Origin: Verrucomicrobiales bacterium
Lineage (GTDB): Bacteria; Verrucomicrobiota; Verrucomicrobiia; Verrucomicrobiales; DEV007
Length of the DNA: 64,000 nucleotides
NCBI GenBank assembly: GCA_029233965.1
Contig: JARGOP010000011.1
Span: 1-64,000 of the forward strand
Direction: 5' to 3'
Shown: piece after piece, positions 3,477 through 12,876 of the stretch
Position numbering within the stretch: position 1 is the stretch's first letter
How the letters are laid out: each line of letters begins with the position of its first letter
Translations under genes and position numbers: made by a program
Notes under the pieces: generated by a model
Databases searched by the model: none
Seen by the model: the letters and a program-made list of their open reading frames with translations, nothing else
What the model was told of the DNA's origin: nothing

Positions 3477-4778
3477 ATGGCTGATTTTCGCGTCAAAAAA
3501 GTTAAGGACTTCTCGGCTGAGTTGTCTGTGCCTGGTGATAAGAGTATTTCTCACCGCGCTTTGATGTTTTCGGCCCTTTCCAATGGCCCTTGTGAAATCA
3601 CGGGGTTTCTCGCCAGTGAAGACTGCATTGCGACCCGCACCGCGCTTGAGGCTATGGGGGTGGATGTCGAAGTCCTCGGAGATAATGGCACGCACATTCG
3701 GGTGCACGGGTGCCGTGGAGAATTTCAGGCACCGGAACGGGCCCTCGATTGCGGAAACAGCGGCACGACGATGCGTTTGATGTCAGGTCTTTTATCTGGA
3801 TGTCCCTTTGAGACTCGCCTGATCGGCGATGAGTCTCTCACAAAACGTCCGATGAACCGGGTTGCGTTGCCTCTGGAGAAAATGGGCGCCCGTATCAAGG
3901 GGCAGGGGGATCGCTGCACGGCCCCTCTCACGATTACCGGCCGTGAGAAGCTGACCCCGATTCAGTATCAGTCCCCGGTTGCCAGTGCCCAGATCAAGAG
4001 TGCGATTATGATCGCCGCTTTGAAAGCGGACGGAAAGACGAGTGTGACCGAGCCTCATCCGTCCCGGGATCATACGGAGAGGATGCTGAATTACCTCCTT
4101 GTGAAGAATATTCGCGAGGGAGACACGGTTTCGATCTGGGGCGGGCAAATGCCGGAGTCCCGTGATATCGTCGTCCCGGGTGATATCTCCAGCGCCGCGT
4201 TCTGGATCGTAGCCGCTGCGGCGCGGGACGGAGCGAGACTGCTCATCGATCGCGTCGGACTGAATCCGACGCGCATTGGTATCCTCAGCGTCATGATTCG
4301 GATGGGGGCCCAGATCACAGAGCGGGTCGATGAATCCGGATGTGAGCCGATGGGTTCGATCGAAGTGGTCGGAGGTAAGTTGAAAGCGACCGAGATCGGC
4401 GGGGCTGAAATCCCGACACTCATTGATGAAATTCCAATCCTCGCGGTGGCGGCGGCGCTGGCCGAGGGAACGACAATCATTAAGGATGCTCAGGAACTCC
4501 GGGTGAAGGAGAGCGATCGCATCTCTGCGGTCGCGGAAAACCTGCGCCGCATGGGCGTGCCGGTCGAGGAATTTGCTGACGGCATGGAAATTACCGGCGT
4601 CGGGGAACTTAAAGGAGCGGAGATCAATTCGCTCGGGGATCACCGGATCGCGATGGCGTTTGCGATTGCGGGGCTTTTTGCTGAAGGCGAGACCGTGATC
4701 AAAGGGGTCGAGTGCATCGAGACCTCCTACCCCGGCTTCATTCGCGAGCTGAACCAGCTCCAGACGATGGGAGGGTAG
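3477..4778 (+). CDS. aroA: 3-phosphoshikimate 1-carboxyvinyltransferase (EPSP synthase)
   Basis: 433 residues, normal for the family. It transfers the enolpyruvyl group of phosphoenolpyruvate to shikimate 3-phosphate, the sixth step of the shikimate pathway. Visible motifs are PGDKSISHRA near the N-terminus, CGNSGTTMRL in the PEP site and LTKRPMNR. It also has the short signatures used to define class II enzymes: GDKS, SAQIK, RDHTE and NPTR. Class II enzymes are often less sensitive to glyphosate, but the Gly in NSGTT that favours inhibitor binding is retained here, so sensitivity cannot be predicted. It follows tyrA closely. The ribosome-binding site is weak. Confidence 0.95.
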   Translation: MADFRVKKVKDFSAELSVPGDKSISHRALMFSALSNGPCEITGFLASEDCIATRTALEAMGVDVEVLGDNGTHIRVHGCRGEFQAPERALDCGNSGTTMRLMSGLLSGCPFETRLIGDESLTKRPMNRVALPLEKMGARIKGQGDRCTAPLTITGREKLTPIQYQSPVASAQIKSAIMIAALKADGKTSVTEPHPSRDHTERMLNYLLVKNIREGDTVSIWGGQMPESRDIVVPGDISSAAFWIVAAAARDGARLLIDRVGLNPTRIGILSVMIRMGAQITERVDESGCEPMGSIEVVGGKLKATEIGGAEIPTLIDEIPILAVAAALAEGTTIIKDAQELRVKESDRISAVAENLRRMGVPVEEFADGMEITGVGELKGAEINSLGDHRIAMAFAIAGLFAEGETVIKGVECIETSYPGFIRELNQLQTMGG

Positions 4779-4839
4779 AAGAAAGCAATAATTTGCTTGT
4801 CTCATTTCCGATTTCCTGATGTTTTTGCCTCGGAAGCCC

Positions 4840-4948
4840 CCGAAATGTTGATGTAAATACATTGTATGGGCAGAAAAGTCGTTCAAATGACATTTTACCC
4901 TTGTATTGTCATTGTATTTTGTTCAGTTTACATTGTAAAACATTTCGG
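4840..4948 (+). promoter_or_regulatory. promoter with palindromic CATTGTA repeats before the Verru_Chthon cassette
   Basis: TTGTCA (4906-4911), 17 bases, then TACATT (4929-4934) form a sigma70-like promoter. CATTGTA occurs three times (4860-4866, 4910-4916, 4931-4937). The first copy sits in the palindrome ATACATTGTAT (4857-4867) and the third in TTTACATTGTAAA (4927-4939), which covers the -10 element. An outer inverted repeat CCGAAATGTT (4840-4849) / AACATTTCGG (4939-4948) brackets the region. The arrangement looks like operators for a dimeric repressor; no such regulator gene lies nearby. Confidence 0.45.
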
Positions 4949-4997
4949 TGTCCCTCCTGTGTTTCACCTCCACTGGTAATCTCCACCCCCAAGACGA

Positions 4998-7900
4998 ATG
5001 AAAATTCCTCAAAGGCTCTTTCGACGAGCCACTTCATCCAAGGACAAGCAGGGCGTTGCTCTGGTGACCGTGCTCACCGTGATGGCGCTCACGACGATCC
5101 TGATCCTGACATTTTTCTCCCTTGCGACCAGCGAACATCGCGCTTCCAACACCTATTCGCAGGGATTGCAGGCGCAGCAAGTTGCCGAGCAGGCGGTCAA
5201 TATGGTCATCTCTCAAATCCGGGAGGCGACCACGGTCGATACGAAGAAGCTCTGGGCTTCCCAGCCGGGGGCGATCCGGGTTTTCGAGGGAACCGCGACG
5301 ACAGGGGTTCTCTACAAGCTCTATTCGGACGATAACATGGTCGACTCGGGCGGAACGGAGGCGAGTCAGGATTTTGGCGATCTGGCTCAGTGGGAGAGTC
5401 GGCCGGAGCATTTTGTGGATTTGAATGAACCCGTGATTCGCGGAGAAAAGGTCTATTATCCGATTGTGAACCCTTCAGCCGCGGATTTCCCCAAGTGGCC
5501 GCGTGCGCTGAATGGCAAGACTGAGGGTGTCGAAGGGTTTTCCTACACGGCTCAGGTTCCGGGAGGGGAATTTGGAACCGAAGCGGCGCTCATCGCTCAG
5601 GCATCCGGAGGCCATGTCGCGATGCCGGTGAGATGGCTCTACCAAACCGAGGATGGGAGTGTCGGTATCTTGAACGATGCCCTTGAGTTTATTCCGCTCT
5701 TCGGAGGGCAGAACGCTTCCGAGACAAATCGGATTGTGGCCCGTTTCGCTTTCTGGGCAGATGATGAGACTTCAAAGCTCAATCTGAATACTCATGCCGG
5801 CGGGCTCGCCTGGGATATTCCCAAGGCGGGGGGGGAACTTGATATGGCGTTGGGGAAATTCCAGCCTGCGCAGAAGGAATGGCAGCGATATCCCGGTCAT
5901 CCGGCGACGACCCACCTCATTCCGGCATTGGCTCCGGGAGTGATCGATATTGTCAATGATCGGGATGCGATGGAGATGTTGTTCGAAATCGTTCCGAGAG
6001 TGGTTGGTGGCGGATCTGAATCAGGGACGAGGACGATCAACACGAGGGATCCGAAAGAGGAAAACGGCCTTGTTTCTGATACTGAGCCGCTTTTCCCTTC
6101 GGTGGATGACATGGTGATGCGCTCTGATCGTCAGCCTCACGAGTTTCCGGATGCCAATGGAGAACCTTTGCCTCCGTCTGAGTTGAGCGAGTATCTGGAG
6201 AGGGCCAAGTTCTTTTTGACGACGAGAAGCAGAGCGCCCGAAGTGAATCCGTTGAATCTCCCCAAAGTCGCGATGTGGCCGATTTACAATCGGGAGCGGA
6301 CCGATCCGGAGTACACGAGATATCTGACTGCTTTTGACCGGCTTATCCATTACTGCTCGATCGTGGGGAAAAATGGAAACGAGGATTTTGATTTTATTTT
6401 CCGTCGTGAAGAGGCGGATTCCAAGGATCACGATTACAAGGAAATTCTGAGAAACCAGCAGTTGATTGCCTACCTGGAGTGGGTGCTCGAGCAGCGGGTC
6501 CCCGGGTATGCGCAAAGCTTTCAGCAGAAATACGGCTCCGAGCAGGTTTCCCAGACTTTGGCGCTGATCTTTGATTACATTCGCAGTTCGAATCTTCACG
6601 ATGACACGATCTACGGGGAAAATTTTGAAAGGGCCTTCGAAGAAGATAATACGGGCACTCATCCTACGTTCACCAACCCCAGAGACAAAGCGGAACCCGG
6701 GTTCGGGCACAAAGGGCACGGGCAGGTGACGCCGATTCAGATTGGTGATGTCAAGGGACTGGGCAGGTTCTACTCTCTCGCGAGCGCAGGAGTCCATGTC
6801 GCAGCGGTGGCGGAGAATGCTCAGGACCGTGCTGCAGCTGGTTTGCCGATGTATGCCTACGCGGGCATGTCCAGTTATCGGAACCAGAATAACGAAGACC
6901 CGGACGGAACCGCCTACAGTAATCTCCCTCCGATGCCTAACGGGATCAATCAGAGTGAAAAATCCACCTGGCCTGCCTGGTTGAAGGCTTTACCGGCGGA
7001 AGAAGCCGCTGCCGCCTTTGATCCGGCCAACTGGAACTGGCAACTCATGTTCCTCTCTCCCTCGCTGGATTTGGCTAACAATCTTCAGCGCTGGCGTGTC
7101 CAGAAATTTCAATCAGGGCTTCGCAATGATGCCGGCTACGCGGCCGAATACAAGGCCCCGACAACTGTGCTGCGACTGCAGCCGGGGCAGCGCCTCCTTC
7201 AGGCAGCTATCGTTTTCAACCTCTTCAGTCCCAGTATTGGATGGTCCTCGATCAATCCTGACATGGAGATCCACATCACGAGGGGGGGGAGTTTTTCTTT
7301 CACTTCCGCGGGAGGCGGCGATGGCCAGTTTCTTGCATTTACGAATCAGGCTTCCCGCCCTTCGGGCATCGGGAATGATACTTTTGTGTGGGCCACGAAC
7401 TGGACGAAACCAATGCGAACTTCCGGCGCCCGGGCCTGGGGAGGGTTGCTCTCATTCGGTTATGCAATGACGGCAAGGCAACACAACCAGAGCGGACAGG
7501 CGGGAAGTGCCCGAAGGAATGTCTGGTGGCATCTCCATCAGGACGGTGTCAGTCCTAACTTCATCCAGTGTCGTTACAGTGCTCTCGACCGCGGATATGA
7601 GGGGATTGTCAGCGCGCTCGGAAAAGTCGATCGTGATATCGGGGGGAATGCGGCAAATATCGCCCAGTCCTACCGATACGATTTGGTAACCGCGCCTTTC
7701 CTGGTGCAGGACTCGGTTGCTTTCAGCGGAGGTGATCTTCAGTTCGAAATTTACGACGGGGGGCCGAGATGTGAGGGCTCCGCGGCTGATGACGGGGGCA
7801 ATCCAGATTTGGTTCAGGATATCACCCTGAATTTCGAAAATTTCACCCTTGACGCGCCGTTTATGCCTCAGCCGCGCCAGGGGCATATCAACGAGTTTGG

Positions 7901-9590
7901 AAATTTGAGTCGTGATACCATCCCGGTCTTCAATCTCGCCAGTTTGACAGCAGATCCGGCCAATGAGATTGCGAGTCCGAAATTCAGCGAGGTCGCGCGA
8001 AGAGGTGGGCAGGGACGGCCTGCCGGAAGGATGACTGAACTGACAAGAACCTGGGAGGCTGGCGATACCTATATTCGCCGGGGATTCAATCCTTCCGGTG
8101 ATATTGTTAGAGCGGTCGGGGTTCCTCACGGCGACATGCGCATGACTTCTGCGAAGAGGGTTATCGGGCCGACTGAGAATGAGTTTTTCGATGAGCACTT
8201 CAAATATGGATCATCGGATCCGATGGCTCATTCTTTCACCAATTCGGTGGGAAGGGCGATTTCCGGGTTTGATCCTAAGGATAATGATACCGAAGAACGT
8301 CTGATCGTCACGGACCTGCCGACGCGGGGCAATGCCGGCCCCTACCGGAATGTGATCCCGATGCCGTTTTTCACCGAAAAGGCGGCGGATGTACAGTTCT
8401 TTGGTGACTTCGATAACGGAGCCGGCACGATGATCGACGGCCCCTACATCAACAAGCCGGATGAAGGGAACGTTCACGCGTTGAAAACCAAGTTCACCCA
8501 GGGCGTCACCGGATACTGGGAGGAGCGCAGGAATTACGGCGATTTTCCGTATTTCAGCAATCCCGAGGTGGCTGAATCGGGCGGGCCTGCCTATTTCTCA
8601 CCGAACCGAATCCTGTCTGGACCGGGAATGTTTGGATCACTTCCCACCGGGATTGCGAGTGGCGATCCATGGCAGACCCTGCTCTTCCGGCCGAACGTCA
8701 TAGGTGGTCGTTATAGGAATCACCCCGGTGCCGGCCAGAAGGGTGGCGGAGTGTCCGACCCACCCGATCATCTCCTCCTCGACATGTTCTGGATGCCGGT
8801 GGTGGAGCCTTACGCGATCAGCGAACCTCTTTCGACGGCGGGAAAAATCAACCTCAACTATGAAATGATTCCTTTCCTTCACGTGAAGCGGGCCACCGCT
8901 CTCTCCGGCGTCTTCCGTTCTGAGTATATGCTGTGTATTCCAAACGAGTGGAATGGGGATTACAAGCACGACCGCGGACGGGGCCGTGGTTACCATTGGC
9001 GGGATGCTCCGACGAGGGGGGCTCTCCAGGGGAAGAAGCTGCGTTCCGTCATCTCCGAGGACGAGACTCTGAAACAGTTTGAGGAGCGGTTCGACAATGG
9101 GAACAGTGTTTTCAAGACGGCGAGTGAGATCTGTGAAATTCATTTGATCCCGCAGGAAATTTCTGATCGTCTCGGAATCGCAATCGGAAGCGTGGGAAGT
9201 TATACACCATCGCTGGAGCAGATGGAGAACGGACAGTATTGGAGTGACCACGCTCTTGTGGGAGACAACTCCAGGGAGCGACCTTACGCGAATATCCATC
9301 AGCGACTCACGACGAAGTCGAACACTTTCAAGGTGCATTACCGCGCTCAGGTCTTGAAGCAGTCGCGGAGAGATGACGGGAACTACGCGACCTGGCAGCC
9401 CCTGATCGACAGCGTTCAGGCGGAGTATCGCGGGTCATCCATCGTCGAGAGATTTGTGGATCCGAATGATCCTGATCTGAATAAGGATATCGCGAACCTG
9501 GCCTTTAGTCCCGGCGGTGACGAGCCTGCGGAATATCTGAGCAGTTTTTACCAGTATCGGGTTGTAAATCCACGCCGGTTTGCTCCGTAA
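4998..9590 (+). CDS. Verru_Chthon cassette protein A (GspK-like giant pseudopilin)
   Basis: 1530 residues. After a basic leader the N-terminus reads GVALVTVLTVMALTTILILT, a prepilin-type hydrophobic helix. It lacks the Glu at position 5 of the mature helix, as do GspK/PilX-type minor pilins. It is followed by EHRASNTYSQGLQAQQVAEQ, the amphipathic helix seen in that group. The huge remainder (from about residue 70) is probably extracellular or periplasmic and shows no recognisable enzyme motif. Family knowledge: Verru_Chthon cassette proteins A-D are encoded together in Verrucomicrobia, often in several copies per genome, with unknown function. The stop overlaps the start of the B gene. By analogy with GspH-I-J-K, protein A would cap a minor-pilin tip; this is inference. 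Confidence 0.85.
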   Translation: MKIPQRLFRRATSSKDKQGVALVTVLTVMALTTILILTFFSLATSEHRASNTYSQGLQAQQVAEQAVNMVISQIREATTVDTKKLWASQPGAIRVFEGTATTGVLYKLYSDDNMVDSGGTEASQDFGDLAQWESRPEHFVDLNEPVIRGEKVYYPIVNPSAADFPKWPRALNGKTEGVEGFSYTAQVPGGEFGTEAALIAQASGGHVAMPVRWLYQTEDGSVGILNDALEFIPLFGGQNASETNRIVARFAFWADDETSKLNLNTHAGGLAWDIPKAGGELDMALGKFQPAQKEWQRYPGHPATTHLIPALAPGVIDIVNDRDAMEMLFEIVPRVVGGGSESGTRTINTRDPKEENGLVSDTEPLFPSVDDMVMRSDRQPHEFPDANGEPLPPSELSEYLERAKFFLTTRSRAPEVNPLNLPKVAMWPIYNRERTDPEYTRYLTAFDRLIHYCSIVGKNGNEDFDFIFRREEADSKDHDYKEILRNQQLIAYLEWVLEQRVPGYAQSFQQKYGSEQVSQTLALIFDYIRSSNLHDDTIYGENFERAFEEDNTGTHPTFTNPRDKAEPGFGHKGHGQVTPIQIGDVKGLGRFYSLASAGVHVAAVAENAQDRAAAGLPMYAYAGMSSYRNQNNEDPDGTAYSNLPPMPNGINQSEKSTWPAWLKALPAEEAAAAFDPANWNWQLMFLSPSLDLANNLQRWRVQKFQSGLRNDAGYAAEYKAPTTVLRLQPGQRLLQAAIVFNLFSPSIGWSSINPDMEIHITRGGSFSFTSAGGGDGQFLAFTNQASRPSGIGNDTFVWATNWTKPMRTSGARAWGGLLSFGYAMTARQHNQSGQAGSARRNVWWHLHQDGVSPNFIQCRYSALDRGYEGIVSALGKVDRDIGGNAANIAQSYRYDLVTAPFLVQDSVAFSGGDLQFEIYDGGPRCEGSAADDGGNPDLVQDITLNFENFTLDAPFMPQPRQGHINEFGNLSRDTIPVFNLASLTADPANEIASPKFSEVARRGGQGRPAGRMTELTRTWEAGDTYIRRGFNPSGDIVRAVGVPHGDMRMTSAKRVIGPTENEFFDEHFKYGSSDPMAHSFTNSVGRAISGFDPKDNDTEERLIVTDLPTRGNAGPYRNVIPMPFFTEKAADVQFFGDFDNGAGTMIDGPYINKPDEGNVHALKTKFTQGVTGYWEERRNYGDFPYFSNPEVAESGGPAYFSPNRILSGPGMFGSLPTGIASGDPWQTLLFRPNVIGGRYRNHPGAGQKGGGVSDPPDHLLLDMFWMPVVEPYAISEPLSTAGKINLNYEMIPFLHVKRATALSGVFRSEYMLCIPNEWNGDYKHDRGRGRGYHWRDAPTRGALQGKKLRSVISEDETLKQFEERFDNGNSVFKTASEICEIHLIPQEISDRLGIAIGSVGSYTPSLEQMENGQYWSDHALVGDNSRERPYANIHQRLTTKSNTFKVHYRAQVLKQSRRDDGNYATWQPLIDSVQAEYRGSSIVERFVDPNDPDLNKDIANLAFSPGGDEPAEYLSSFYQYRVVNPRRFAP

Positions 9591-10114
9591 TGAACCGGAA
9601 TACGGATAGTGTAATGAAAATGAAGATTGATGATCAAAAATCGAAAAGAACGAGGGCGTTCAGTCTCATCGAAGTGACCCTGGCCATGGCAATCGCCGCG
9701 GTCGCTCTCGTGACGCTGCTTGGCATGATTCCTCAGGGTCTCTCGACGATGAATGAGGCTGCTGATCTCGCGATTGGTGGCCGGATTCAACAGCAGGTAT
9801 TGAATGAAGTTCAGATGGCTGATTTTGATGTGATTGATCGATACGATGGAATGGTAGTCTACTACGATTCCCAGGGGGAAGAGATTGAATCACAAGGCGG
9901 CGGAGACGGGGCTACTCCGCCCGAGGGAACGGTTTACTCTGCCAGAGTGGTAATTCAGCCGCCCATCCCGGGGCAGGAATTCATAAGGCCGGTGACGATC
10001 CAGATCGCCGCGACTGGCGAGCGCGGAGGATTCGATTGGGACTCCGAGAAAACAAGATATCAAAGAACAACTCACCAGACAATGGTGGTTAGAATGGGGA
10101 AGGTAGAGCTATGA
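9590..10114 (+). CDS. Verru_Chthon cassette protein B (pseudopilin)
   Basis: 174 residues. A charged leader of about 24 residues precedes AFSLIEVTLAMAIAAVALVT, the class III prepilin signal with cleavage before Phe and the conserved Glu at +5. A prepilin peptidase would cut it and leave the helix in the inner membrane until assembly. The remaining 125 residues are a small periplasmic domain. Length and position fit cassette protein B and resemble GspI-type minor pseudopilins. The start ATG overlaps the A stop (TAATGA) and the stop overlaps the C start (ATGA), so A-B-C are translationally coupled. Confidence 0.85.
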   Translation: MNRNTDSVMKMKIDDQKSKRTRAFSLIEVTLAMAIAAVALVTLLGMIPQGLSTMNEAADLAIGGRIQQQVLNEVQMADFDVIDRYDGMVVYYDSQGEEIESQGGGDGATPPEGTVYSARVVIQPPIPGQEFIRPVTIQIAATGERGGFDWDSEKTRYQRTTHQTMVVRMGKVEL

Positions 10115-11166
10115 AGTTGGGCAAATTTCTCAAGAAAAAGGCGTTTTCTTTAATCGAACTCATGGTCGCCATGGGGATTCTTTCAGTTCTCATGCTGATG
10201 ATGACCCTGCTTCTCGATCAGGTTCAGGAGACATGGCAATATTCTGAAAGTCGTATTTCCCAGTTCCGGGAGGCCCGGGTCGCATTCGATCTCATGTCCA
10301 AGAATATCGGTCAGGCGAGTTTGAACACATACTGGGATCTCAAAGACGAGGACCGTGATGGCATTGTGGATCAGTATTTTCGAACCTCGGAACTTCACTT
10401 TACGGTCTTCGACGCCGCGAAGGAACTCGCCGGGAAAGCGGGAAGTCAGCAACCGGTTGGCAGTGGGATTTTCTTTCAAGCACCCCTGGGGTATTCGGAT
10501 AATTACCGGAATCTGAATAATCTCTTCAATGCGGTCGGTTATTTTGTCGCATGGGGCGATGATCGAAATTTCAGGCCTTCCATCATCCGTTCCGAGCCGG
10601 AGACGCGTTTCCGGATTTTTGAGTTTCGTCCACCCGCCGAGGCGAATCAGGTCTTTGCCGACGGGGCGGAGGAGCGCAACATGGAAGTGAGGACGGATCA
10701 GATATTCGACAAGTGGTATTCGCAAAGTGTTTCAGGCCTGGAGGATCAATTAACTTTTGAGCAATACCTGAACCCGCTCGCTAAGAATGTCGTCACCGTG
10801 GTCGTGTCCCCTAGAGAGTCAATTTCCGACGATCTGGGGAACCGTGAGGATTCCTTTACCCGAATCGCTTCCAATTATGTGTTCGATTCAAACGATCCCT
10901 CTCCGGCGAGGGTTCGATTCACTCAGCAGTTGCCTCCACTGGTGCGTATTACCATGATCGCGATTGATGAGTCCGGGGGGGCTAGACTCGAGTCCGAGGG
11001 CGAGGAAGCACCACAACTTTTTCCGGAGACTCTGTTTCAAAATGTCTCGAGGTATGAATCAGATCTGCAGGAAGCCACCACGGCTCTCTCAGAGAGAAAT
11101 TTGAATTACAAGATCTTCAGCACCCTCATCTCGATTCGAAGCGCCAAATGGAGCCCCGGTGACTAG
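10111..11166 (+). CDS. Verru_Chthon cassette protein C (pseudopilin)
   Basis: 351 residues. The leader is followed by AFSLIELMVAMGILSVLMLM with the +5 Glu, and then by FREARVAFDLMSKNIGQASL, which matches the post-helix region of GspJ-type minor pseudopilins. The rest is a periplasmic domain of about 300 residues with no catalytic motif. Length and order fit cassette protein C. The start overlaps the B stop by four bases; protein D follows after 44 bases. Confidence 0.85.
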   Translation: MKLGKFLKKKAFSLIELMVAMGILSVLMLMMTLLLDQVQETWQYSESRISQFREARVAFDLMSKNIGQASLNTYWDLKDEDRDGIVDQYFRTSELHFTVFDAAKELAGKAGSQQPVGSGIFFQAPLGYSDNYRNLNNLFNAVGYFVAWGDDRNFRPSIIRSEPETRFRIFEFRPPAEANQVFADGAEERNMEVRTDQIFDKWYSQSVSGLEDQLTFEQYLNPLAKNVVTVVVSPRESISDDLGNREDSFTRIASNYVFDSNDPSPARVRFTQQLPPLVRITMIAIDESGGARLESEGEEAPQLFPETLFQNVSRYESDLQEATTALSERNLNYKIFSTLISIRSAKWSPGD

Positions 11167-11210
11167 AAGGGATGCGTTCGTAAAAGCTTTACCATGATTT
11201 TACTCCTACG

Positions 11211-11870
11211 ATGAAAAAAACTGAAACAGGAAATAAGGGATTCTCTCTCATTGAGTTGATGGTTGTGCTGGGCCTCATTGGCCTCTTGATGGCCATTGCT
11301 GCGCCGAATATGCTGGGCCTCATCACCTCCAACAGTTTGACCGGGGAGGGGGTTTTTCTGGAGAACCAATTGACCCTTGCTCAGCAAACCGCGACAGCGA
11401 TGAGCTCGGATGTCGAGGTCCGTTTTTTTTGGACTGCTGATGAAAATGCCGCTCAAACTGAGCCTGCTTATCGGGCTTACCAACTCTATCAATACAACGA
11501 ACGGGGAAAAATGGAGCCGATCAGCAGTCTGTTCAGGCTGCGGCCTCCAGTCGTCTTGAGTAATGTTCTAAGTACGCTCTTGACCCCGGGATTGTCGTCC
11601 GATGAGCAAAATAGACGGTTTGGTTTTATCTCTCCGGTTGAAGGAGAGGTGGAGGTTCCGGCTATTGATAACCAGAAGACGAAATACGTCAGTTTCCGGT
11701 TCCGGCCGGACGGTTCGACAGACCTCCCGTCCCGAAGCGGAGAGGAGGCAGACACCTGGTATTTAACGGTGGTAAGTGGAGAAGGTGCCGCAGACGCCAC
11801 GGATCTCGATAACTTTGTCTGCATCCAGGTGAATCCTTACAACGGGAAGGTGACCCAGTATCGACCTTAG
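11211..11870 (+). CDS. Verru_Chthon cassette protein D (GspH-like pseudopilin)
   Basis: 219 residues. GFSLIELMVVLGLIGLLMAI is a textbook prepilin cleavage and methylation motif. It is followed by an N-terminal amphipathic helix and a beta-rich domain like GspH/FimT pseudopilins. This is the last gene of the cassette. No prepilin peptidase, assembly ATPase or secretin gene is in this window, so the machinery must be supplied from elsewhere. Confidence 0.85.
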   Translation: MKKTETGNKGFSLIELMVVLGLIGLLMAIAAPNMLGLITSNSLTGEGVFLENQLTLAQQTATAMSSDVEVRFFWTADENAAQTEPAYRAYQLYQYNERGKMEPISSLFRLRPPVVLSNVLSTLLTPGLSSDEQNRRFGFISPVEGEVEVPAIDNQKTKYVSFRFRPDGSTDLPSRSGEEADTWYLTVVSGEGAADATDLDNFVCIQVNPYNGKVTQYRP

Positions 11871-11956
11871 GCCTCAACGGCATTTCGTTTACGGGGACGC
11901 GTTTCGGCAGATCCATCGAGGTCCGCCGTCTCTTAAGTTTTCGCAAGGTTGATATC

Positions 11957-11985
11957 GGTTCGGGAAGTTTTGCCTCCCGAAAACC
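11957..11985 (+). terminator. possible terminator hairpin after the Verru_Chthon cassette
   Basis: GGTTCGGGA (11957-11965) pairs with TCCCGAA...CC (11975-11985) with a two-base bulge; CATTTTTC follows about six bases later. The stem is good but the T-tract is short and displaced, so this may be a terminator or only a stable stem between the two operons. Confidence 0.3.
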
Positions 11986-12041
11986 TGCTTCATTTTTCGC
12001 CTTCCCGACATTCGGGGAATTCGGTTGGATTTTCTCCCAAA

Positions 12042-12071
12042 AATCGCTTGTGAAATTTTTCACAAGCGATT
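12042..12071 (+). promoter_or_regulatory. perfect 30-bp palindrome with CRP-type core upstream of actA
   Basis: AATCGCTTGTGAAA (12042-12055), two T, then its exact reverse complement (12058-12071). The core is TGTGA (12049-12053), six bases, TCACA (12060-12064), the classic recognition pattern of CRP and related Crp/Fnr-family regulators. It ends 43 bases before the actA ATG, a natural place for an activator site controlling the respiratory block. No T-tract follows, so it is unlikely to be a terminator. The regulator gene is not in the window. Confidence 0.6.
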
Positions 12072-12114
12072 AAATGGGGCGTCTTCTGCGACCTAAAGGC
12101 CGTTTTCCTCTACG

Positions 12115-12876
12115 ATGGGCAATATCTTTCCACGCTGGACTAATCTCCTCGCAATTAAGGTTCTCCTGTGCGCCGGTGCACTGGGAACATGCGTCGTTGC
12201 TGTCGCCTGGTATTCATGGACTCCGAAGTATACGCGGGTCGGTTACATGCCACAGCAGCCAATCCCTTTTGACCACAGCCTTCATGCAGGGCAGCTGGGA
12301 ATGGACTGTCGCTACTGCCACTCTTTCGTGGAGAACTCCCCCCACTCAAACGTGCCAACCGCCCAGGTCTGCTGGAATTGTCATGGTCCGGGCAAGGTGA
12401 AGTCGGATTCTCCCAAGTTGGAGCCGCTGCGCAAGGCGATGGACGAGAATTACGAGGGCTACACCGGTGAGCCGATTGAGTGGGTTCAGATTCACAAAGT
12501 TCCGGACTACGCGTATTTCAACCACTCGGTTCACGTGAATCGCGGAGTGAGCTGCGTTGAGTGCCACGGTAAGGTTAATGAAATGCCGGTCGTTTACCAT
12601 GCAAAATCTCTGAGCATGAGCTGGTGTCTTGATTGTCACCGGAATCCGGAGAGCGCTCTGCGTCCGCTTGACCAGATCACGAATCTCGACTGGACTCCGG
12701 ATGATCTCGATCCGGATGAATTTTACGCCTATGTCGCGGGCAAGACCGGTGAGAATGCTGAAGATCTGAAGAAGGGCGACGAGGGGAAAGAGTGGGGGCA
12801 GGAGCTGATTGGTGCTCACCTTCAGATGGCCTGGGATGTTCATCCTCCTCAGGATTGTGCAGCGTGTCACCGGTAA
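12115..12876 (+). CDS. actA: alternative complex III pentahaem cytochrome c subunit ActA
   Basis: 253 residues. An N-terminal membrane helix (about residues 12-33) anchors a periplasmic domain with five CxxCH haem c motifs: CRYCH (65-69), CWNCH (86-90), CVECH, CLDCH and CAACH, the last at the very C-terminus. This is the usual arrangement of ActA in alternative complex III, a quinol:electron-acceptor oxidoreductase that replaces cytochrome bc1. ActA passes electrons outward over its haem wire. It is the first gene of the respiratory block. Translation begins at ATG 12115 with only a weak Shine-Dalgarno. The neighbours actB-F are in canonical order. Confidence 0.95.
   Translation: MGNIFPRWTNLLAIKVLLCAGALGTCVVAVAWYSWTPKYTRVGYMPQQPIPFDHSLHAGQLGMDCRYCHSFVENSPHSNVPTAQVCWNCHGPGKVKSDSPKLEPLRKAMDENYEGYTGEPIEWVQIHKVPDYAYFNHSVHVNRGVSCVECHGKVNEMPVVYHAKSLSMSWCLDCHRNPESALRPLDQITNLDWTPDDLDPDEFYAYVAGKTGENAEDLKKGDEGKEWGQELIGAHLQMAWDVHPPQDCAACHR

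Follow-up and report, generated by a model that had tools for sequence, protein, structure and literature searches.

Type II secretion systems (T2SS) and type IVa pili share a tip complex of minor pilins of the H, I, J and K types, in which the cap is the subunit that lacks the glutamate at position +5 (Glu5), according to the available portion of the source (PMC10191384). The Verru_Chthon cassette, which is named in NCBIfam family descriptions that state no function and to which we assign here a class and a fold, resembles the T2SS set GspH-GspI-GspJ-GspK (XcpU-V-W-X) in comprising the same four classes, in the loss of Glu5 in K, in the predicted GspJ and GspK folds and, in many cassettes, in the H-I-J-K gene order. 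It differs in that its K subunit is enlarged about four- to fivefold by an internal insertion, that it scores below all GspHIJK cut-offs, that genes for G, E, F and the secretin are not alongside, and that some relatives carry many sets per genome. The type IVa minor pilins FimU-PilV-PilW-PilX with PilY1, as in clusters 1-3 of Myxococcus, similarly form alternative tip sets within a genome and include a large tip protein; unlike these, the cassette has its large part built into the K subunit, and PilY1 was not found in the cassette genomes (nor, above the cut-off, in control genomes). In Streptococcus sanguinis, PilB and PilC likewise are minor pilins at the tip that carry an extra functional module, but there the modules are grafted on other pilins, whereas the cassette insertion is much larger and lies inside a GspK scaffold. 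As far as the accessible parts of the respective papers go, both modular minor pilins (PMC9934059; PMC8179133) and alternative minor pilin/PilY1 clusters (PMC7541494) are already known, so that the giant GspK form described here is a variant of such systems. The 67 PulG-like pseudopilins of one Verrucomicrobiota genome, reported in the available section of another paper (PMC13274419), represent an expansion that, on that text, differs from the expansion of cassettes. No mention of Verru_Chthon or of TIGR02600, TIGR02598, TIGR02599 or TIGR02596 was found in the papers searched.

The window, that is, the whole stretch of 64,000 nucleotides analyzed from a Verrucomicrobiales bacterium (contig JARGOP010000011.1), contains at 4998-11870 four plus-strand ORFs in series, A, B, C and D (Table 1). 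A and B overlap by 1 base (the start of B is the last base of A), B and C overlap by 4 bases, and C and D are separated by 44 bases. All four products exceed the curated NCBIfam cut-offs and thus are the Verru_Chthon cassette proteins A-D: A scores 837.2 bits against TIGR02600 (cut-off 332.3), B 72.1 against TIGR02598 (51.4), C 279.5 against TIGR02599 (256.5) and D 115.6 against TIGR02596 (70). Because the cassette is found again in dozens of genomes, this set of ORFs is not due to chance.

Table 1. Features of the Verru_Chthon cassette in the window
Feature	Position	Strand	Description
Protein A	4998..9590	+	1530 aa; TIGR02600; minor pilin of the GspK type, very large insertion
Leader of A	4998..5054	+	probable prepilin peptidase cut after G19; +5 residue is T24, not Glu
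Long N-terminal pilin helix of A, residues 20-78	5055..5231	+	predicted; helix 2-59 in the L217 model, mapped by alignment
First N-x-N motif of A, KLNLN, residues 260-264	5775..5789	+	resembles GspK 'ADETGKLNLN'
Strand-rich inserted region of A, residues ~587-1066	6756..8195	+	predicted; L217 model 504-784, mapped to the window
Second N-x-N motif of A, KINLN, residues 1283-1287	8844..8858	+	counterpart of the second GspK motif
C-terminal strands of A, residues 1443-1530	9324..9587	+	predicted; L217 model strands 1121-1195; inside the GspK match
Protein B	9590..10114	+	174 aa; TIGR02598; GspI-like; Glu5 is E28
Protein C	10111..11166	+	351 aa; TIGR02599; GspJ-like; Glu5 is E16
Protein D	11211..11870	+	219 aa; TIGR02596; GspH-like; Glu5 is E15

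The left neighbor of the cassette (3477-4778) is, to judge from its sequence, what we take to be an aroA-like gene for EPSP synthase, and the genes on the right presumably represent the start of the act operon for alternative complex III. The layout aroA-A-B-C-D-act, with genes recognized by length and order, recurs in many of the closest named relatives (L158, L161, L162, L169, L172, L178, L179, L185 and L188). No G, E, F or secretin genes adjoin the window cassette, that is, it is not linked to a T2SS operon, and scans of 4700-12200 for promoters and terminators gave matches at about the chance level. At 12048-12065, between D and the act operon, there is a perfect palindrome, TTGTGAAATTTTTCACAA, where none is expected by chance; the exact pattern is present in 19 named-genome loci, mostly those with aroA-act synteny. 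The palindrome fits what we take to be the consensus for binding by the redox regulator Rex and suggests redox control of alternative complex III. Elsewhere in the window, from 43161 onwards on the plus strand, a prepilin-type ORF of 280 residues lies outside any cassette; its nearest profiles are those of major pilins (G/H).

The first-pass annotation, made from the nucleotide sequence, had read the four proteins as a GspK-GspI-GspJ-GspH set, and sequence class, gene order and fold all support this identity well. Apart from the cassette families themselves, the NCBIfam family that A matches best is GspK; for B it is XpsI/GspI, for C GspJ and for D GspH, all below the GspHIJK cut-offs (A-GspK, 27.6 bits against 130; B-GspI, 19.5 against 44.35; C-GspJ, 26.8 against 64.85; D-GspH, 32.1 against 80); A, at this score, is not a GspK equivalog. 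In relatives (NCBIfam, E<=0.01), the N-termini of 47 of the 49 A proteins match GspK, and one matches GspI; the 44 B proteins match XpsI (31), GspI (28) and PilV (32) and never GspG, GspH, GspJ or GspK; the 51 C proteins match GspJ (41), GspI (6), GspH (1) and GspG (1); and the 43 D proteins match GspH (42), GspG (34) and GspJ (5). The same classes emerged from profile-profile comparison with five T2SS classes, built from phylum loci with 7-10 mature sequences per class (leaving out three GspK sequences in which the cleavage site was not found): the predicted class was the best of the five for each of the four proteins. A matched K at 93.3%, with the other classes at 20.8% or less, and D matched H at 98.9% over 138 columns, with G as the runner-up at 97.6%; the margins were small for B (I, 95.3%; J, 92.3%) and C (J, 96.4%; I, 93.6%). 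Across both cassettes of the genome, the predicted class ranked best for eight of eight proteins.

The class-specific profile similarity of the cassette derives mainly from the N-terminal part. When the first 30 mature residues were cut, D-H stood at 41%, whereas A-K (7.9%) and C-J (2.7%) were the best of five but not significant, and B-I gave no signal, the best class for B being J at 0.9%. Among segments of A compared with GspK, the N-terminal part (95.3%) is the only significant one; the first N-x-N segment reached 21% and the others 6.1% or less. Searches of PDB sequences returned nothing relevant for the N-terminus of A, only weak major-pilin matches for B, and major pilins, matched via the N-terminal helix, for D. 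The sizes of B, C and D had been described as class-like, which is only approximately so, each mature length being above the range of the phylum T2SS sets (B, 151 residues, GspI 118-147; C, 340, GspJ 209-327; D, 209, GspH 150-201). Altogether, A, B, C and D are almost certainly homologous, class by class, to GspK, GspI, GspJ and GspH.

The pattern of Glu5 was likewise read correctly at the outset. Protein A is predicted to be cleaved after G19, a residue that does not vary across an alignment of 17 A proteins; a cut after a conserved Ala was considered and dropped, the invariant Gly two residues upstream being the better site. Across 115 A proteins (the set excludes L069_9688 and L076_4547, which are false prepilin hits, and incomplete A ORFs were left out of the structure alignment), the position two residues ahead of the conserved Ala holds G (104 proteins), A (9) or P (2), and the +5 residue is T in 46, followed by M, L, I, V, S, P, F or A, and never E. 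Thus, with cleavage predicted, a prepilin leader with Glu5 is present in the H, I and J classes (B, C and D of the window all have it) but not in K.

Protein A is indeed far larger than GspK, with about 1511 residues in the mature protein against 297-393, and its two N-x-N motifs are 1023 residues apart, compared with 108 and 114 in L125 and L126, the two sequences with both motifs among 19 listed phylum GspKs. The earlier description of a very large A domain therefore stands as to size, but not as a simple appended domain: the extra sequence is an insertion inside the GspK scaffold, between the N-x-N motifs, and A is a GspK with its middle enlarged by about 900 residues. No clear PDB relative of the strand-rich insertion was found, only weak, mixed matches with Z of 4.4 or less. 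Pfam yields no family for A at E<=10, the GspK domain included, whereas the canonical GspK of the same genome matches T2SSK_1st; a relationship of A to PilY1 was considered and dropped, the corresponding Pfam match being absent.

Structure prediction bears on two of the four classes. The model of window C, built from 51 sequences (pLDDT 87.0, pTM 0.83), retrieved in the top seven Foldseek rows chains of EpsI:EpsJ and GspK-GspI-GspJ (3cfi, 2ret, 3ci0_J; E 2.7e-3 to 7.5e-2), after which the probability falls from 0.72 to 0.07; the matched chains of 3cfi and 2ret are, we take it, the J subunit. On realignment, GspJ chains, XcpW and the Thermus pilin TTHA1219 reach Z 9.3-10.9, followed by unrelated chains at 4.9. 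The pseudopilin fold expected of C is thus present, as a GspJ fold, in the predicted structure. For A, the fold was taken from the homologue L217 (mature A, 1198 residues, gene order A-B-C-D, 36% identical to window A), modeled from 63 sequences (pLDDT 85.0, pTM 0.87). GspK is absent among the 50 best Foldseek rows for this model; when the best 1000 rows were realigned, 3ci0_K came first (Z 10.1, rmsd 3.7, 261 of 280 residues) as the sole GspK row, every other row having Z of 4.4 or less, and GspK family members missing from the realigned list are not counted against the fold. The 3ci0_K match covers residues 29-1198, that is, it spans the model end to end, which places the extra mass inside the scaffold. 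The predicted structure of this A homologue thus contains the GspK fold.

Gene order provides further support for the classes. The canonical T2SS block of the same genome, F-G-H-I-J-K with a K of 310 residues, is on contig C17, separate from the window cassette, and all 10 phylum T2SS loci in which the four genes were found have the order H-I-J-K (21 were examined; only K was found in the other 11). The window cassette is K-I-J-H; in contrast, the second cassette of the genome (L058, contig C59) is D-B-C-A, as are 12 of 38 loci in two cassette-rich genomes, G217 and G066. Translated by class, D-B-C-A is H-I-J-K, which supports the class assignments independently of the profile scores. The remaining orders in these 38 loci are A-B-C-D (13), B-C-D-A (5), A alone (3), B-C-A-D (2) and singles (3). 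Among 77 named loci, class calls were obtained for 70: A-B-C-D in 37, A alone in 12, singles in 5, D-B-C-A in 4, and A-A-B-C-D, A-B-C, B-C-D-A and B-C-A-D in 3 each. Tandem A genes ahead of B-C-D are seen, for example, in L168 and L175.

The number of cassettes varies widely between genomes. Full scoring with TIGR02600, counting distinct places with adjacent pieces merged, placed about 24 A loci in G217, about 15 in G066 and 2 in the genome of the window, of which 21, 12 and 1, respectively, exceed the cut-off. In a phylum sample, scored for no more than two candidates per genome, TIGR02600 has matches at E<=1e-5 in 68 of 288 genomes, with 8 over the cut-off. The 22 fetched A loci L017-L038 are nearly all weak matches; in 13 of them, a C-class protein is encoded in the short flank, in several beside a B-class protein, which indicates that giant-K sets extend past the named family. 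Contig C38 of G217 carries four A genes in about 71 kb. Strong A proteins also occur in two records titled Akkermansia muciniphila (L193 and L200), titles that may be misassigned; L193 has a 3300-residue PEP-CTERM neighbor, as in Prosthecobacter loci.

New to this analysis are the two genomes with about 24 and 15 cassettes, many of which adjoin giant PATR/PEP-CTERM proteins. In the 38 loci of these genomes, a PEP-CTERM-like end is encoded by the first same-strand gene beside the cassette in 15 of 42 cases versus 4 of 290 other genes, and such an end in a protein of more than 700 residues in 11 of 42 versus 1 of 290 (Fisher p 4e-10, indicative only, given our own regular expression for the motif, uncurated ORFs and paralogous loci). 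At random loci of the same genomes, the respective counts are 5/321 and 1/321. Long PEP-CTERM genes in the named set are adjacent in 6 of 77 cases versus 3 of 708 others, four of the six being alike (L189, L191, L193, L195) and L221 apparently repeating the G217 genome. Of 20 flanking proteins scanned with Pfam, 12 have PATR above the cut-off; 11 of the 20 were picked for their PEP-CTERM appearance and 9 by size and position. Two of these nine contain PATR, a third has only the PEP-CTERM motif, over the cut-off, and among the remaining six are a GH5 enzyme, a sensor kinase and a rhamnosidase. In L098 (G066:C8, minus strand), a PATR/PEP-CTERM frame reads stop-free into the A protein, with 2129 codons open; the cause may be a genuine fusion, coupled translation or misassembly. 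No giant PATR/PEP-CTERM neighbor lies beside the window cassette or its aroA-act orthologues, so that the association cannot account for all cassettes, and a giant flanking protein as the general partner was rejected for the window locus; the genome holds PATR repeats elsewhere (6 matches).

Our preferred reading, with a probability of roughly 75%, is that the cassette is a complete H-I-J-K-type minor-pilin tip set priming a type IV filament. Prepilin peptidase would process all four proteins; B, C and A (I-J-K), joined by D (H), would assemble, staggered, into a tip in the inner membrane; and this tip would prime a filament whose assembly machinery, that of a T2SS or a type IV pilus, is encoded at another place in the genome. 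A is placed at the tip because the tip-cap subunit is the one without Glu5, in the available text of the source (PMC10191384); lacking Glu5, A must, under the tip model, cap the fiber. Its insertion of about 900 residues would then travel with the fiber as far as the outer membrane channel or past it, where it could act as a receptor, an adhesin or a cargo-binding head. The A-D complex, the priming of a fiber and the display of A outside the cell, all proposed in the first-pass annotation, would follow from homology; we regard priming as probable and put even odds on a display or cargo role for the insertion.

The cassette may use either a T2SS or a type IV pilus, and the data favor neither. 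It is possible, as a tentative proposal, that it takes the place of the canonical GspHIJK tip at the T2SS pseudopilus and chooses the cargo, which in the cassette-rich genomes would be the giant PATR/PEP-CTERM neighbor. A normal-sized GspK is present in all eight genomes with a strong A (G000, G066, G078 and five more) and absent from the three same-order genomes without A that were sampled, although relatives without GspK are few (n=3). The 11/42 adjacency of giant PEP-CTERM genes (1/290 others, 1/321 random) and the open frame of L098 are consistent with such tips, as is the recognition of substrates by the XcpUVWX tip, as given in the accessible part of the source (PMC6211770); the window cassette and its aroA-act orthologues, which lack a giant neighbor, speak against them, as does the likeness of four of the six named-set loci and the repeat genome among them. 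Of comparable, again tentative, standing is the proposal that the four proteins are minor pilins of a PilT-containing pilus, with A replacing PilX and PilY1. PilV matches 32 of 44 B proteins, PilT-type ATPases are encoded in all 11 genomes searched, and PilY1 exceeds the cut-off in none of the 11, nor in the control genomes, which weakens this negative; however, the PilT-type ATPases are also present in three same-order genomes without the cassette. ATPases and F proteins of the same genome are found on C80, C40, C56, C17 and other contigs, and, besides the T2SS set, the two cassettes are the only I/J/K-type sets among the prepilins examined there, a list that covers only the N_methyl matches of a draft assembly. 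The available text on Myxococcus describes three alternative minor pilin/PilY1 clusters in line with this proposal (PMC7541494). A separate secretin, GspE and GspF cluster on contig C56 (L060) has prepilin-type proteins that fit every cassette class poorly.

It is improbable that A-D stay outside any filament, as proteins of the surface or periplasm for which the prepilin-type leader serves only as a leader. The machine genes are indeed not linked to the cassette, and the insertion of A would probably be very large for a secretin channel; nevertheless, it is hard to see, without assembly, why the four classes H, I, J and K are kept together with Glu5 lost only in K.

A curated family without a stated function thus now has a concrete molecular class. 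Speculatively, and with some doubt on our part, certain Verrucomicrobia could carry up to about 24 dedicated tip sets that share the filament machinery, the inserted head of each giant GspK recognizing, and exporting or displaying, a giant partner PATR/PEP-CTERM protein that is often encoded in the same operon; if so, the conserved cassette between aroA and act in the window would be a variant lacking a linked partner. Should the tips prove interchangeable, these bacteria would amount to a naturally occurring set of dozens of tip and surface-protein pairs, with which to address the question of how cargo is selected in type IV filament systems.
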